The notes under the pieces: generated by a model
What the model was told of the DNA's origin: nothing
Seen by the model: only the letters and a program-made list of their open reading frames with translations
Databases searched by the model: none
Virus record (IMG/VR): IMGVR_UViG_3300005617_000014
Span: 1 to 46,623 of that record
DNA: 46,623 bases
Direction: 5' to 3' (one strand)
DNA from: a virus
Shown here: in pieces, positions 13,036-46,623 of the stretch
Position numbering within the stretch: the first letter of the stretch is position 1
Layout of the letters: each line of letters begins with the position of its first letter
Translations under genes and position numbers: made by a program

Positions 13036-13662
13036 ATGACAGACAAATACAAGGATGACATTCTTAAGCTAATTAGTGAAAAAGGACCATTGGGTGTTAA
13101 TGCTATTCAAAGAGAATTAGGCTATCCTCTTAGTACATTACAGAAATATCTACATAAACAGTCTTATTTCAAAATCAATGATGATAAGAAGTGGGATCTT
13201 CCCGAAAACCACGTAGCGGACATCAAGAGCAATACCCTTTCAATCATGACAGATCTGATTGAAACAAACATTAAGCTCATACAGTCCCAAGTGGAAGAAA
13301 TCCAGCAAAGTTTACATAGCGCTCTTTCTCCTATTAGTACTCTTAAAAGAGGCGTTAGTGCTTTAACCCTCCCTGTGGCGGACAAATCAACTAATATTCC
13401 TAATATTCACCCACTATTGTTTGAATCAGACAAAAACATCCAAACTGCGCTGATGGTAATTAAGAAGTATGTCCAGAAAGTTCCTGAAAAGTACCAAGAT
13501 TTACTAAAAAATGTAGATTTATATAAATTAGTCATTGAAATGGGCAGTATTTATCTAAATAGTACGTTTAATAGTGAAATTGCTAGCCTTTTATTAGAAA
13601 AGACTGATGAATTATCAGATGATATGATTCAAGTTCTTAAAAACTATCAAAAGGAGGCATAA
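13036..13662 (+). CDS. Winged-helix DNA-binding protein, first early gene
   Basis: 208 residues. Residues 5-55 form a winged helix-turn-helix: KLISEKGPLGVNAIQRELG, then the recognition helix PLSTLQKYLHKQ and a short wing around DDKKWDLPE. The rest is mostly helical with TNIKLIQSQVEEIQQSL as a possible dimerising coil. As first gene after the control region it is a candidate regulator of the early/late switch or an origin-binding protein. An alternative is a general host-takeover transcription factor. No enzyme motifs are visible. Confidence 0.7.
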   Translation: MTDKYKDDILKLISEKGPLGVNAIQRELGYPLSTLQKYLHKQSYFKINDDKKWDLPENHVADIKSNTLSIMTDLIETNIKLIQSQVEEIQQSLHSALSPISTLKRGVSALTLPVADKSTNIPNIHPLLFESDKNIQTALMVIKKYVQKVPEKYQDLLKNVDLYKLVIEMGSIYLNSTFNSEIASLLLEKTDELSDDMIQVLKNYQKEA

Positions 13663-13852: not shown

Positions 13853-14013
13853 ACGAATCGGACATAAGTTACATTTGGTCGAGCGGAATAAAACAGGCAA
13901 AACAGACATAATGCAATCTCATATAGTGAAAACATATAGAGAACTGATCCAAAAAAGAGTAGGCTAAAAAGAAAAACAAAGAACGCGACCACTTTTCAGG
14001 GGAGGACTCTGTC
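13853..14013 (+). other. Early intergenic region
   Basis: 161 bases without a gene. It contains GGTCGAGCG (13877-13885), a CATAAT (13907-13912) that could be a -10 box without a clear -35, and a direct repeat CATATAG. A strong GGGGAGG sits before the ATG at 14014. A promoter for the following small-gene cluster is plausible but not shown. Confidence 0.4.
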
Positions 14014-14568
14014 ATGACCACGTGTAAATTCTGCACCGGTACTTTAATTGCTGGTATCTGCCAAGAATGCCATTCTAATAACCTCAAAAAGACATTTGCA
14101 ATTGATTACAAGAATCCAATTCTTTTTGGAACGCTTTGGAATTGCTGTAATGGGAATGAGAAATTCGTAATTGTTTTTGACAATGGCCACAGGGCAGCTG
14201 TTTGTGCTTCTTGTGCGAATTGTTACCCAGGTCCTGTCTTTTCTCTTGCTATCTTTTCGCCTAATGTTTTTTACACTCCAGAAAAAGGCGTTTGTGAGAA
14301 TTGTGGAGGACTCACTCTTGATGACGAATGTATTGATGGTAAGGATTGCATTTCAATTGACGTTGCAATTCCCGAAATGTGCTATTGCGAGCACACAAAT
14401 CATTTCAATGACCACTTAGGCCCGCAAACTAAGCATGAATATGCCAAAGTAAATGCGGGAGAAAAGAAAGCTCTTTATGTTGGCTCAATTTGTGATGACT
14501 GCGCCGAGAATTGCATGCAGGGATACCTCATTCCTACAGATAACTGCAACGTGTCACATCGTATTTAA
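14014..14568 (+). CDS. Multi-zinc-ribbon protein
   Basis: 184 residues with about 24 cysteines arranged as pairs: CKFC and CQEC near the N-terminus, CASCANC near residue 66, CENC near 93, CYCEH near 127 and CDDC near 162. The spacing suggests four or so treble-clef or zinc-ribbon modules separated by beta segments. Such proteins often contact nucleic acid or transcription machinery. No exact family recognised. Its TAA is the first base of the first leader element (14566). Confidence 0.7.
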   Translation: MTTCKFCTGTLIAGICQECHSNNLKKTFAIDYKNPILFGTLWNCCNGNEKFVIVFDNGHRAAVCASCANCYPGPVFSLAIFSPNVFYTPEKGVCENCGGLTLDDECIDGKDCISIDVAIPEMCYCEHTNHFNDHLGPQTKHEYAKVNAGEKKALYVGSICDDCAENCMQGYLIPTDNCNVSHRI

Positions 14569-14640
14569 TTGATGATTGCTTGAGCGAATCGTCTGCACCC
14601 TGTGGCCGGTTCGTTCAGTGAAATTATCAATTGATTGGAG
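14566..14640 (+). ncRNA. Structured intercistronic RNA element, copy 1
   Basis: Outer stem AATTGATGATT (14567-14577) with AATTATCAATT (14622-14632), 11 pairs including one G-U. Inner hairpin GAGCGAATCG (14582-14591) with CGGTTCGTTC (14607-14616), with two G-U pairs. The element begins at the upstream stop codon and ends just before the next gene's ribosome site. The loop carries CTGTGGC. Four more copies with the same fold but different stem sequence follow at 14873, 15531, 15767 and 16345. Confidence 0.75.
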
Positions 14641-14647
14641 AATTGAA

Positions 14648-14875
14648 ATGGGTATTAATTTGCCTCATGGTGGCTGTAAATGGGAAGGCTGCAATGTTTG
14701 TGCTAATATTCGAATTGGATACCACAGAGTTAGTGAGAATTCTGTTACGTCTGCTGTACTTACTAAAGCAGAATTGCAGGAACGAGTAGAAGAAATTCTC
14801 TCTGACCCTGATATTGACCACTATTGGACCCGCAATTATTGGACAATGGATATCCTTTTCGATTCTAAGTCTTAA
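14648..14875 (+). CDS. Small early protein with N-terminal zinc knuckle
   Basis: 75 residues. The N-terminus has GGCKWEGCNVC, a compact cysteine cluster. The rest is helical and acidic with AELQERVEEIL. The ATG at 14648 is chosen because the upstream in-frame extension runs through RNA element 1. A GGAG lies at 14637-14640. Its TAA starts element 2. Function unknown. Confidence 0.65.
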   Translation: MGINLPHGGCKWEGCNVCANIRIGYHRVSENSVTSAVLTKAELQERVEEILSDPDIDHYWTRNYWTMDILFDSKS

Positions 14876-14945
14876 TTGATGATACCTCATAGGTGTAATC
14901 CGTTTGGCTTGCACCTGTGGCGAGTTTATCAATTAGAAAGGACTC
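14873..14945 (+). ncRNA. Structured intercistronic RNA element, copy 2
   Basis: Outer stem TAATTGAT (14873-14880) with ATCAATTA (14928-14935), eight perfect pairs. Inner hairpin AGGTGTAATCC (14891-14901) with GGCTTGCACCT (14906-14916), 10 of 11 paired, GTTT loop. CTGTGGC at 14915-14921 sits in the 3' junction. AAAGGA ribosome site follows. Confidence 0.75.
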
Positions 14946-14950
14946 TTGAC

Positions 14951-15214
14951 ATGTTGACTTCTGCTATCAAATTCGAAATCCGTAACGTCAAGGCTGGTAT
15001 TCAGGAGCAATTTCTCATTCCTAACACTGTTTACAGTCAGGAAAAGGTTTTTGGCCACAGGTACACACGGGAAATTGAATTCGTTGAGGTTTTCGATTTC
15101 CAATTTGCAAAGGAGATGCGTATTCCTGCTGAAATGATTGACTGGTCCACTGAATTGGAAAACGAATTGTGTGACGTTGACGAAATGACTGGAATGGTGG
15201 GAGTGTACGCATGA
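14951..15214 (+). CDS. Small early hypothetical protein
   Basis: 87 residues from the ATG at 14951. The longer in-frame extension is rejected because it lies in RNA element 2. Mixed alpha/beta, no cysteine pairs, acidic C-terminus (STELENELCDVDEMTG). Its TGA overlaps the next ATG (ATGA at 15211). No family recognised. Confidence 0.65.
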   Translation: MLTSAIKFEIRNVKAGIQEQFLIPNTVYSQEKVFGHRYTREIEFVEVFDFQFAKEMRIPAEMIDWSTELENELCDVDEMTGMVGVYA

Positions 15215-15342
15215 TTATTAGTGGGTTTTTCCGTTGTCTTTGTGAGAAAATACACTCAGTAGGAGGTATTACCCTCACTTCACGTTGTCCTAAATGCAAT
15301 ACTCGTCTCTTTTCTGTGATGTGTTGGCGTAAGGGTGTTTAA
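15211..15342 (+). CDS. Very small zinc-ribbon protein
   Basis: 43 residues. It has CLC near residue 9 and CPKC near residue 29, arranged as FRCLCEK and SRCPKCNTRLF, consistent with a single zinc ribbon. The ATG overlaps the previous stop as ATGA, so it is probably translationally coupled. Function unknown. Confidence 0.6.
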   Translation: MIISGFFRCLCEKIHSVGGITLTSRCPKCNTRLFSVMCWRKGV

Positions 15343-15363
15343 CTGAACTGGAATGGTGGCGCT

Positions 15364-15537
15364 GTGAAAACTCGTATTCTTGAAGGGCACAATCTACTTA
15401 AGATTTGCCCTGCTTGTGGCAAAGAACTTGAAATACATCCTGTTTCGGGTTGGAAAGCTTGCTTTCTTCATGGTGATTTTATTATCAGTGAGGACAATCT
15501 TTCCATTAAATGGATTCTCGGACTTATCACTAATTGA
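15364..15537 (+). CDS. Small zinc-ribbon protein with GTG start
   Basis: 57 residues, starting at GTG 15364. CPACGKELE (about residue 15) and a later C/H pair (WKACFLHGDF) suggest a rubredoxin- or TFIIS-like zinc ribbon. The end overlaps the beginning of RNA element 3, with TGA inside its left arm. The ribosome site is weak (GGTGG). No specific family recognised. Confidence 0.55.
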   Translation: MKTRILEGHNLLKICPACGKELEIHPVSGWKACFLHGDFIISEDNLSIKWILGLITN

Positions 15538-15604
15538 TTGATGATTACTCGAATGTGCAATCTGAAAGGCTTGCACATTCTGTGAAATTATCAATTAGGA
15601 AGGT
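15531..15604 (+). ncRNA. Structured intercistronic RNA element, copy 3
   Basis: Left box TAATTGATTGATGATT (15531-15546) with AATTATCAATTA (15586-15597). Inner hairpin GAATGTGCAA (15551-15560) with TTGCACATTC (15571-15580), ten perfect pairs. The ten-base loop can close further on GAAA. The 3' junction reads CTGTGAAATTATC. An AGGAAGG ribosome site follows. Confidence 0.8.
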
Positions 15605-15612
15605 GAACTAAA

Positions 15613-15774
15613 ATGGATATTGGTACTCTCGTTTACTACAAGACCTATGACTATACTCCTGATTTGACTATTGGAATTGTTACTGCTATCGACAATTGTA
15701 CAAAACTAATTACCGTTTTGTGGGCAGATGGTGTTGAGCTGACATACACTGCAATTGCACTAGTCAAAATTTGA
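15613..15774 (+). CDS. Small early protein, beta-barrel-like
   Basis: 53 residues: MDIGTLVYYKTYDYTPDLT, then GIVTAIDNCTKLITVLWADG. The pattern of short strands resembles a small SH3-like barrel, as seen in several tiny phage proteins (compare 19816-20061). It is flanked by RNA elements 3 and 4. Function unknown. Confidence 0.6.
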   Translation: MDIGTLVYYKTYDYTPDLTIGIVTAIDNCTKLITVLWADGVELTYTAIALVKI

Positions 15775-15839
15775 TGATTACTCGGGTTTGCAATTCGACC
15801 GGAATTGTAGGCCCTGTGAAGTTATCAATTAGAGAGGAT
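15767..15839 (+). ncRNA. Structured intercistronic RNA element, copy 4
   Basis: Left box AATTTGATGATTA (15768-15780) with GTTATCAATT (15821-15830), pairing around TTGAT/ATCAA. Inner hairpin GGGTTTGCAATTC (15784-15796) with GAATTGTAGGCCC (15802-15814), 13 pairs with three G-U and a GACCG loop. The 3' junction is CTGTGAAGTTATC. AGAGAGGATTGAA ribosome-site block follows, as in copy 5. Confidence 0.8.
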
Positions 15840-15846
15840 TGAAGCA

Positions 15847-16200
15847 ATGATTGTCTTCAGTGAATTGAAAAAAGGCGATGTTCTAGTTCATAATTCAGGC
15901 AGTATTAAAGGGGTTGTAACGGCACTTGTCAATTTCAATGCAGATGTATATTTGAAGAATGATAAGGGAGAGACTATTTGTATCACTCCTCGGTATTTCT
16001 CTTTTTGGACAAAGAGAACAGAAGAAGAATTGAAAGAAGAGAGAGAAAGTAGATTCGTCATCCTTGTCGATGATGACGGATATAAATGGTTTTATGCGCA
16101 AGATAGAGATGGTAGTGTTTGGCGCTGGGAACACTACTCTAAATGGCGTACCAGAGAAACACGTAAAGATTGGGTGCCTGTCCCTTGGATTGGTTACTAA
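15847..16200 (+). CDS. Hypothetical early protein, beta-rich
   Basis: 117 residues. The first half (FSELKKGDVLVHNSGS, then VYLKNDKGETICITPRYF) looks like a small beta barrel. A charged linker (RTEEELKEERESR) follows, then a Trp/Tyr-rich C-terminal segment (YKWFYAQDRDGSVWRWEHY). The first half resembles the shorter 15613-15774 protein in layout. It is preceded by RNA element 4. Function unknown. Confidence 0.65.
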   Translation: MIVFSELKKGDVLVHNSGSIKGVVTALVNFNADVYLKNDKGETICITPRYFSFWTKRTEEELKEERESRFVILVDDDGYKWFYAQDRDGSVWRWEHYSKWRTRETRKDWVPVPWIGY

Positions 16201-16212
16201 TGAATCCGTGAA

Positions 16213-16311
16213 ATGAGACAGTTCCTTTCTGTAGTCATTGACTTTGTCATTCCATATTTTGGTCCTACCTACCTGCTAATTGTAGTAGTACTTTCAGTGA
16301 TAGGAGAATGA
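16213..16311 (+). CDS. Tiny single-membrane-segment protein
   Basis: 32 residues with one long hydrophobic stretch (VIDFVIPYFGPTYLLIVVVL). It lies 12 bases after the upstream gene. The ribosome site is weak, and its stop overlaps the sequence leading to a second micro-ORF at 16313. Plausible small membrane peptide; real but uncertain. Confidence 0.45.
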   Translation: MRQFLSVVIDFVIPYFGPTYLLIVVVLSVIGE

Positions 16312-16312
16312 A

Positions 16313-16348
16313 ATGGATGAGAAACAAAAAGCTTGGCGTACCATCTAA
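16313..16348 (+). CDS. Micro-ORF directly before RNA element 5
   Basis: Eleven codons (MDEKQKAWRTI) preceded by AGGAG and ending in the TAA that begins element 5. All other copies of the element also start at the stop codon of a preceding gene. This may be a remnant of a longer gene or a leader peptide kept because the element needs a terminating ribosome. Confidence 0.35.
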   Translation: MDEKQKAWRTI

Positions 16349-16418
16349 TTGATGCAGTAACGGGAAGTGCAATTCTAAACGGCTTGCGCCTCCTGTGGCT
16401 ATCTCAATTAGAGAGGAT
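16345..16418 (+). ncRNA. Structured intercistronic RNA element, copy 5
   Basis: Outer stem CTAATTGA (16345-16352) with TCAATTAG (16404-16411), eight perfect pairs. Inner hairpin around GTGCAA (16367-16372) with TTGCGC (16384-16389), extended by GG/CC. CTGTGGC at 16393-16399 lies in the 3' junction. AGAGAGGATTGAA then leads into the ATG at 16423. Confidence 0.75.
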
Positions 16419-16422
16419 TGAA

Positions 16423-16590
16423 ATGAAGATTGCTATTCGAATTGTAGATGGAGCCACAGGGACAATGAGTTTGTTTGCTGTTGTGAGAAATCATCCAGCA
16501 ATAATCACTAAGTACTACAACATGGCTAGAGCTACATTTCCGCAATATTCGTCCAATTGGGTTTCTTTAAAGGAATGGAGTCTGAAGTGA
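16423..16590 (+). CDS. Small early hypothetical protein
   Basis: 55 residues (MKIAIRIVDGATGTMSLFA...). The ATG at 16423 follows the AGAGAGG ribosome site; the longer frame starting at 16333 runs through RNA element 5 and is rejected. It carries a GCCACAG copy at 16453. Short beta/alpha fold, no motif. It ends overlapping the next gene's GTG. Confidence 0.6.
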   Translation: MKIAIRIVDGATGTMSLFAVVRNHPAIITKYYNMARATFPQYSSNWVSLKEWSLK

Positions 16591-16787
16591 TAGCGCATTG
16601 GAATAGGGATAAAAACAATTATGATTTCAATTTTAGTCCTTCAGAATTAGGGTTTATTCGCTATGCTCTATATAAGGCACGCCTTGCTTCTTGTACAGAA
16701 AATGATCTAAAGGCTTATACAAAACTACTAGAAGATATGACGAATCTTAGTGAGCAAAATTCGACCGGAATTGATCTTGGAGAGTAA
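16587..16787 (+). CDS. Small early hypothetical protein
   Basis: 66 residues if translation begins at GTG 16587, which overlaps the upstream TGA as GTGA and has GGAG 6 bases upstream. An ATG at 16575 or 16557 in the same frame would lengthen it by 4 or 10 residues. Helical, polar (DLKAYTKLLEDMTNLSEQ). No family recognised. Confidence 0.55.
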   Translation: MIAHWNRDKNNYDFNFSPSELGFIRYALYKARLASCTENDLKAYTKLLEDMTNLSEQNSTGIDLGE

Positions 16788-16916: not shown

Positions 16917-16953
16917 AAAGAAAGGCCCGGGATTAATTTCCCGGGCCTTTCTT
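16917..16953. terminator. Bidirectional intrinsic terminator
   Basis: Perfect 12-bp stem AAAGGCCCGGGA/TCCCGGGCCTTT (16921-16932 and 16939-16950) with loop TTAATT. T-rich on the right (TTTCTTT) and A-rich on the left, so it works for both strands. It separates the rightward small-gene cluster from the converging gene at 16988-17818. Confidence 0.92.
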
Positions 16954-16987
16954 TGCGAAGGACTGCTTTTAAGGTACGTCCTAACCT

Positions 16988-46149: not shown

Positions 46150-46586
46150 GTTAGATGTTTCCTAACAGAACCTAAGTCTCTAAACTCATCATCACGTACA
46201 CGACCTTCATGAATCCAACGACTCTTAGTATTCTTAATAACAAAAGCACTAAAATCTTTCATAGCTTCTCTTTCATCAATTTCTTCTTTAAGTTTCAAAG
46301 CTTCAACAGCTTTATTGTGAGCATCCATTCTTTGAAGCACATTACCATGTCTACTATCAGAACTCCATAATCTAGCAAGAATGTCAGCAGGATTAGACAA
46401 AGAATCTGCATATAAAACAATTTTTTTATTTCTATCATCTACAATACGAAAAACTTTAGATTTATCTGTTAAATTCTGCTGTTCCGCCACAGGGACCATT
46501 TCAAGAAACAAATACTGATCATAATCATTTATGATCTCCGCCAAGCGTTGAAACTCAGCGGAGACCCATTCGTCAATTTCTGACAT
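46146..46586 (-). CDS. Hypothetical virion-operon protein
   Basis: 146 residues, helical, acidic N-terminus (SEIDEWVSAEFQRLAEIIN) and a beta centre (KVFRIVDDRNKKIVLYAD). Its start lies inside the terminal repeat, so the first 73 bases recur at the window start. A recurring phage protein placed upstream of the adaptor; function not recognised. Carries a GCCACAG copy at 46486. Confidence 0.65.
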   Translation of the reverse strand: MSEIDEWVSAEFQRLAEIINDYDQYLFLEMVPVAEQQNLTDKSKVFRIVDDRNKKIVLYADSLSNPADILARLWSSDSRHGNVLQRMDAHNKAVEALKLKEEIDEREAMKDFSAFVIKNTKSRWIHEGRVRDDEFRDLGSVRKHLT

Positions 46587-46623
46587 TTACTTCTTAGCTC
46601 TTCCAGTATCATCTAAGGGTGAT
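46514..46623. repeat. Terminal direct repeat, right copy (contig closure)
   Basis: Exact copy of 1-110. Joining the ends makes the minus-strand operon continuous: the gene at 74-418 becomes the upstream neighbour of 46146-46586, with its TAA directly next to that gene's ATG. Confidence 0.95.

Follow-up and report, generated by a model that had tools for sequence, protein, structure and literature searches.

An intercistronic hairpin element with compensated pairing in the small-gene operon of an unisolated group of actinobacterial phages

The virus record IMGVR_UViG_3300005617_000014 carries, in one operon of small genes, five copies of an intercistronic hairpin element of approximately 65 nucleotides (nt) that recurs in related phages and whose pairing has been kept by selection on the RNA. 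The window, that is, the whole stretch of DNA that was analysed, is this entire IMG/VR record (46,623 bp), and since an exact direct repeat of 110 bp is found at both ends (positions 1-110 and 46514-46623), it probably represents a complete genome. A terminase, a portal, a DNA polymerase I, a helicase and a primase-helicase can be recognised in it, and its closest annotated kin (31-38% amino-acid identity) are the Cellulosimicrobium phage DS1, the Arthrobacter phage Jasmine, the Microbacterium phage Shocker and the spring virus ctEqG8, which are podovirus-type phages of Actinobacteria. The elements and the genes that surround them are the following:

14014..14568, + strand: first gene of the presumed early operon, 184 amino acids (aa), cysteine-rich
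14566..14633, + strand: element copy 1, 68 nt, outer stem TAATTGATGATT/AATTATCAATTG, inner stem GAGCGAATCG/CGGTTCGTTC, CTGTGGC in the apex
14648..14875, + strand: presumed early gene between copies 1 and 2, 75 aa
14873..14935, + strand: element copy 2; TAA 14873-14875 ends the upstream gene
14951..15214, + strand: gene A, after copy 2, 87 aa
15364..15537, + strand: gene Z, before copy 3, 57 aa, zinc-ribbon-like, GTG start
15535..15597, + strand: element copy 3; covariance model 77.0 bits, E 8.9e-15 (model E-values are rough)
15613..15774, + strand: gene between copies 3 and 4, 53 aa
15768..15831, + strand: element copy 4; upstream stop TGA 15772-15774 inside the 5' arm; outer stem of 9 bp
15847..16200, + strand: gene after copy 4, 117 aa
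16313..16348, + strand: gene C remnant, 11 codons (MDEKQKAWRTI*), broken exactly at the 5' end of copy 5
16346..16410, + strand: element copy 5; 52.8 bits; TAA 16346-16348; fused to the gene remnant
16423..16590, + strand: gene B, after copy 5, 55 aa

The initial annotation of this DNA had described five structured elements, each running from the stop codon of one gene to the ribosome site of the next, and five hairpins were indeed found at those places, each of which fills the whole gap between the upstream stop codon and the following ribosome site. Two of the starts given there (14566 and 14873) were exact, while the others had to be moved, from 15531 to 15535 (the earlier start adds TAAT), from 15767 to 15768 and from 16345 to 16346. 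Copy 1 begins with the stop codon of the upstream gene (TAA 14566-14568) and folds with -29.6 kcal/mol on the sense strand versus -12.1 on the antisense strand, and the stop associated with copy 3 is the TGA at 15535 or 15539. When compared with dinucleotide shuffles, the single window copies reach fold z-scores of -3.7 to -7.0. The proposed architecture of an outer stem enclosing an inner hairpin describes the copies well, except that the outer stem of copy 4 is short and that of copy 5 is more broken than in the others. At its remaining junctions, the window operon has overlaps (ATGA) or gaps of about 20 nt or less.

A covariance model was built on 14 copies and run over the window phage and six closer relatives (G001-G006), all of which are IMG/VR contigs, with no isolate among them. 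Five of these relatives (G001-G005) share 65-74% helicase identity with the window phage, and G006 was found through its element copy. In total, 18 complete copies were recovered: five in the window, three in G002 and two in each of the remaining relatives, one of those assigned to G003 lying on L435, a contig whose 3' terminus and the 5' terminus of G003 overlap. G004 has one further copy, cut off by the contig end and outside the 18. In each phage the copies are confined to one short operon of tiny unknown genes, with no copy detected by the covariance model elsewhere in the same genomes, and all 18 are in the sense orientation of the operon. Among the matches listed by pattern scans of IMG/VR most were chance, and the range of the family is a lower bound, with at least 18 complete copies in at least seven phages. 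The matches on L431 and L473 were weak, and the one on the IMG/VR contig L474 (37.6 bits) has the appearance of a normal terminator hairpin. Jasmine, Shocker, DS1 and ctEqG8 contain no copy according to the covariance model (best 15 bits), annotated phages searched at the DNA level with this region gave no match, and protein scans with A4 and A5 added no further phages. Host or prophage copies were also considered, and a scan of the genome collection produced outer-stem look-alikes only, with at most 33 bits. Had related phages lacked any additional copies that keep the pairing, this would have spoken against the element; such copies were found.

The 18 copies share one layout: a 5' arm TAATTGATGATT, R-C-T-Y, the inner stem, the loop, N-N-T-G-R as the 3' side of the internal loop, and a 3' arm AARTTATCAATTA. 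The sequence of the outer arms and the internal loop are near-invariant across copies (G006a, in which the outer 5' arm is degenerate, departs from this), a C-G pair and the asymmetry of the internal loop are conserved, and the inner stem, of 10-13 bp, is free in sequence, so that the helix is nearly continuous over 19-30 pairs. Several types of apex occur, at least three of them unrelated: AATTCGACCGGAATT (six copies or variants), ACAGATTAAATGCTGT (G005a and G006a), GCAATYC...GGCTTGC and apices that bear CTGTGGC. The placement is equally strict: in all 18 copies the upstream reading frame ends between -7 and +11 nt of the 5' end of the element, in most cases at the TAA or TGA within the arm itself, which supply stops in two frames, and the next ATG, with its ribosome site, lies 11-19 nt past the 3' end. 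The apex of type AATTCGACCGGAATT is also found on its own in five phages, always on the sense strand; this short form lies in the window at

16759..16775, + strand: lone apical hairpin motif ATTCGACCGGAATTGA, at a gene 3' end, right before the next ribosome site

and lone apices of the AATCGACYGGAATT type likewise stand at gene 3' ends before ribosome sites in G001 (40738), G002 (29476), G003 (566) and G005 (6108).

The evidence that the pairing matters comes from an alignment made on sequence only (A6, 18 copies), which was compared with 500 shuffles. The proportion of paired cells is 93.0% (80.3 in shuffles), both sides have changed in 16 pairs (7.4 in shuffles), the cells with double changes number 63 (16.0 in shuffles) and the covariation score is 0.460 (0.202 in shuffles); none of the 500 shuffles reached any of these values. 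Since the shuffle control ignores relatedness, more weight is given to the slide control, in which displacing the partners by one to three columns leaves only 30-48% of cells paired, and to the comparison of strands, in which the sense fold is more stable than the antisense fold in every one of the 18 copies (means of -27.2 vs -17.2 kcal/mol). The inner stem, which had been reported to differ in sequence between copies while remaining paired, behaves in this manner: both sides have changed in 12 of its 13 pairs, and the pair formed by columns 21 and 65, for example, is GC in eight copies, AU in seven, UA in two and UG in one. RNAalifold recovered both stems from the same alignment unprompted. 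G-U pairs make up 76 of the 455 pairs in the sense folds, and the wobble between columns 11 and 75 is G-U in 17 copies and G-C in the remaining one. Selection on double-stranded DNA would not yield a sense-strand bias or a kept wobble, and therefore the element is read as a structure of the mRNA and not as a DNA palindrome. The earlier view that covariation implies a selected RNA structure is thus upheld by copies from seven phages, the slide controls and the strand asymmetry, and an RNA-level function is very probable.

The 3' junction had been said to keep CTGTGR, which is in register in copies 3-5 and not in copies 1 and 2, as the CTGTG of copy 2 lies three bases out of register, and in copy 1 the junction reads CAGTGA and the CTGTGG lies in the apical loop; taken over all 18 copies, the junction is a loose C-H-N-T-G-R, with CTGTG in register in seven. 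The related word CTGTGGC occurs 49 times in the window (25 on the + strand and 24 on the - strand, against 2.9 expected), about once per 950 bp, within and between genes (e.g., 784, 2831, 14600, 14915 and 16393 on the + strand; 46492, 42323 and 16459 on the - strand), and 38-47 times in each of G001-G004. Being over-represented across the genome, it is not specific to the element. The distant kin have words of their own at about 47 per genome (CTGTGGG in Jasmine, CTGTCGC in DS1, CCTGTAG(G) in ctEqG8 and CTGTAAAG in Shocker), and CTGTGGC looks like a phage-specific DNA site, possibly for primase, repressor or packaging. On the sense strand, the word is present in seven of the 18 elements (window copies 1, 2 and 5, G001a, G002c, the L435 copy and G003b), where about 0.6 would be expected, and in four of these it sits in the apex or inner stem and not at the 3' junction.

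The suggestion that the elements mark boundaries for gene swapping has direct comparative support. In G001, G004 and L435, gene F, which has a DSEALH motif, and its element precede three genes that are unrelated to one another; aligning the three downstream proteins gives scores lower than the maximum from shuffles. Gene C is intact in G001, G004 and G006 (77-89 aa), while in the window 11 codons of it survive, joined directly to copy 5. In the window, gene Z has an element behind it, and a homologue in G005 has none. Gene A is preceded by an element in the window and in G001 and not in G004, and is the first gene of the operon in G002 and G005. Gene B, with an element in front in the window, has a homologue in G006 that lies before one, and gene D is followed by an element in G002 and G004, not in G001 or G003. 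G005a and G006a have near-identical inner hairpins and different neighbouring genes. The elements recur, then, at the joints of exchanged genes, and since genes A, B, C, D and Z carry one in some phages only, they are markers of exchange joints that are not tied to particular genes; they may be the cause of the exchange or may merely be tolerated there. A break of another sort is seen in L435 (10507-10759) and L146 (1-252), two contigs of one sample that overlap by ~250 bp and break inside an element, the assembly splitting at the element repeat.

The operon appears to end at an inverted repeat:

16917..16954, + strand: strong inverted repeat AAAGAAAGGCCCGGGA/TCCCGGGCCTTTCTTT, probably a bidirectional terminator that closes the element-bearing operon

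Early expression is suggested by the location of the operon beside replication genes and by its content. No Pfam match was obtained for its 184-aa first gene, ahead of which lies a gap of about 160 bp (13853-14013), a probable control region or promoter; comparable gaps follow the helix-turn-helix gene, or small genes behind it, in G001, G002, G004 and G005. The operon adjoins a winged-helix-like protein of 208 aa (13036-13662), kept in the relatives at 28-51% identity, which is a possible early regulator.

Several known systems resemble the element in part. The only gathering-score match of Rfam in the window is one tRNA, and none falls on the element, so the initial statement that no described family has this layout holds for Rfam; positional relatives nevertheless exist in actinophages (PMC3203893; PMC7302621) and in T4-type phages (cited in PMC4503421). 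Start-linked repeats, SAS and ESAS, are known from Cluster K mycobacteriophages (PMC3203893), and similar ones, of unknown role, from Microbacterium clusters EC, EF, EG and EI (PMC7302621). ESAS-type repeats and the elements are both present several times per genome, in one orientation, among small non-structural genes and directly upstream of starts, and the elements share the inverted repeat, whose spacer varies, immediately before the ribosome site. However, the 13-bp SAS GGGATAGGAGCCC is absent from all 18 element ribosome-site sequences, the changes in the ESAS arms were reported not to support RNA pairing, whereas pairing in the elements is compensated, ESAS for the most part keep to one gene family, whereas the genes associated with the elements change (A, B, C, D and Z) (PMC3203893), and only in the elements does the unit span from stop codon to ribosome site. 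The promoter early stem-loop (PeSL) cassettes of T4-type phages (Arbiol 2010; Comeau 2014, as cited in PMC4503421) are similarly stem-loops between small early genes that serve as joints in heavily shuffled regions. As they are characterised there, these cassettes combine a promoter and a terminator, while the elements have no U-tract, show no promoter of a recognisable type and fold right up to the ribosome site of the gene that follows. No sigma-70-like promoter was found on the + strand inside any window element, although the host promoter type may differ. Cluster O mycobacteriophages have dispersed 17-bp dyad repeats (PMC4351075), which are likewise short actinophage repeats with dyad symmetry; they are DNA-like, with invariant arms and no orientation, also lie within genes, and are nearer to the CTGTGGC word than to the hairpin element. 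Other identities were rejected: a terminator (what comes after the stem is ribosome-site sequence rich in A and G, and no U-tract), an integron attC site (the GTTRRRY/RYYYAAC cores are absent, the arms being TAATTGATGATT and AARTTATCAATTA) and a miniature inverted-repeat transposable element or insertion element (all 18 copies share the orientation of the operon and a fixed stop-to-ribosome-site placement). The early mRNA of phage T7, a podovirus, has several RNase III sites between its early cistrons, which are irregular hairpins of about 60 nt with an asymmetric internal loop. The elements are similar in being irregular intercistronic hairpins with an internal loop and a helix of ~20 bp or more in what is presumably an early operon; they differ in the near-invariant outer arms that contain the stop codon, a feature that the T7 sites are not known to have. 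Among the works listed in PMC8616936 are the T7 RNase III site papers of Saito & Richardson (1981) and Nicholson (1988). The likeness to known kinds is positional, perhaps functional, and ESAS and PeSL each fail at least one tested defining feature.

The function tentatively favoured here is that of punctuation for the processing or stability of the mRNA, comparable to the RNase III sites of T7 and travelling as a portable joint. According to this proposal, the hairpin family would act after transcription, in the first early operon: ribosomes would complete the upstream gene within the 5' arm or next to it, stopping short of the inner stem, and a host double-strand RNase of the RNase III type would cut or cap the helix at or near the asymmetric internal loop. 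The early message would thereby be split into short units, the upstream message gaining a 3' hairpin and the next gene a short 5' leader. The module would bring its own stops (TAA and TGA, in two frames) and abut the start site, so that whatever genes are joined would be properly ended and properly begun, and it is proposed that for this reason it is retained as a portable joint in swaps of small genes. The several copies per early operon and the long helix with its conserved internal loop argue for processing, this layout being most like that of the T7 early RNase III sites, although a hand-over of ribosomes would fit nearly as well. Some considerations weigh against the processing role: the outer stem is conserved in sequence beyond the needs of a generic RNase III site, and the stop codon overlaps the 5' arm, so a ribosome that terminates there has to unwind some of the outer stem, an overlap that would suit a translational role equally or better. 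The copies are, moreover, mutually related, and their independence is overstated in the shuffle control.

In the hand-over explanation, which is a close rival though somewhat less likely, the ribosome that stops in the 5' arm would melt the outer stem, the fold would bring the stop near the next ribosome site, and the 30S subunit would start again downstream across ~65 nt, the hairpin coupling or tuning the translation of neighbours. This agrees with a stop at the base of the 5' arm and a ribosome site just past the 3' arm in 18 of 18 copies, with the overlaps and short gaps of the other junctions, with the remnant of gene C, which despite its 11 codons ends at the hairpin, and with the finding that no upstream frame runs on in the third frame, as about a third would with random joints. 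Nevertheless, the ribosome site is outside the stem and weakly sequestered (mean unpaired probability about 0.41), which gives no clear on/off switch, coupling through overlap requires no hairpin, and the long inner stem of free sequence is left unexplained. It is unlikely that the element is an operator whose outer arms and internal loop, or apical AATTCGACCGGAATT, are recognised by an RNA-binding protein of phage or host, such as an antiterminator or a repressor of translation; the near-invariance of those parts and the lone apical motif before ribosome sites speak for it, yet the unrelated apex types do not suit it, the outer 5' arm can degenerate (G006a) and no candidate protein was identified. 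A role at the level of DNA only, as a joint for recombination or a site for a protein (PeSL-, attC- or ESAS-like) with an incidental RNA fold, is already disfavoured and improbable: it would account for the three genes behind the gene F element, the breakage of gene C at copy 5 and the shared inner hairpin of G005a and G006a, but not for the sense-strand stability, the kept G-U wobble, the single orientation and the strict placement, and the common arms of 12-16 nt are short for homologous recombination. As for chance palindromes or functionless products of template switching, it is known in general that this process can correct palindromes and so mimic compensatory change; it would, however, favour perfect Watson-Crick arms of equal stability on both strands, whereas the copies retain wobble pairs and an internal loop and hold a fixed position in seven phages, so that an artefact is contradicted and scarcely credible.

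It is conceivable, as a guarded proposal, that the element belongs to a new class of phage RNA modules, at once a selected mRNA structure and a physical joint for the gain or exchange of small early genes. If true, the module would be portable punctuation that carries its own stop codons, hairpin and start-site abutment, and some unexplained start-associated repeats of actinophages would work as RNA. Such repeats have been catalogued since 2011 without a function, and an RNA role was judged unlikely for ESAS (PMC3203893); a related layout with strong compensatory change makes RNA versus DNA function directly testable. In this group of actinobacterial phages the element resembles a punctuation mark that can be carried from one place in a phage message to another, and it suggests a concrete route by which phages may swap small early genes without breaking their expression.

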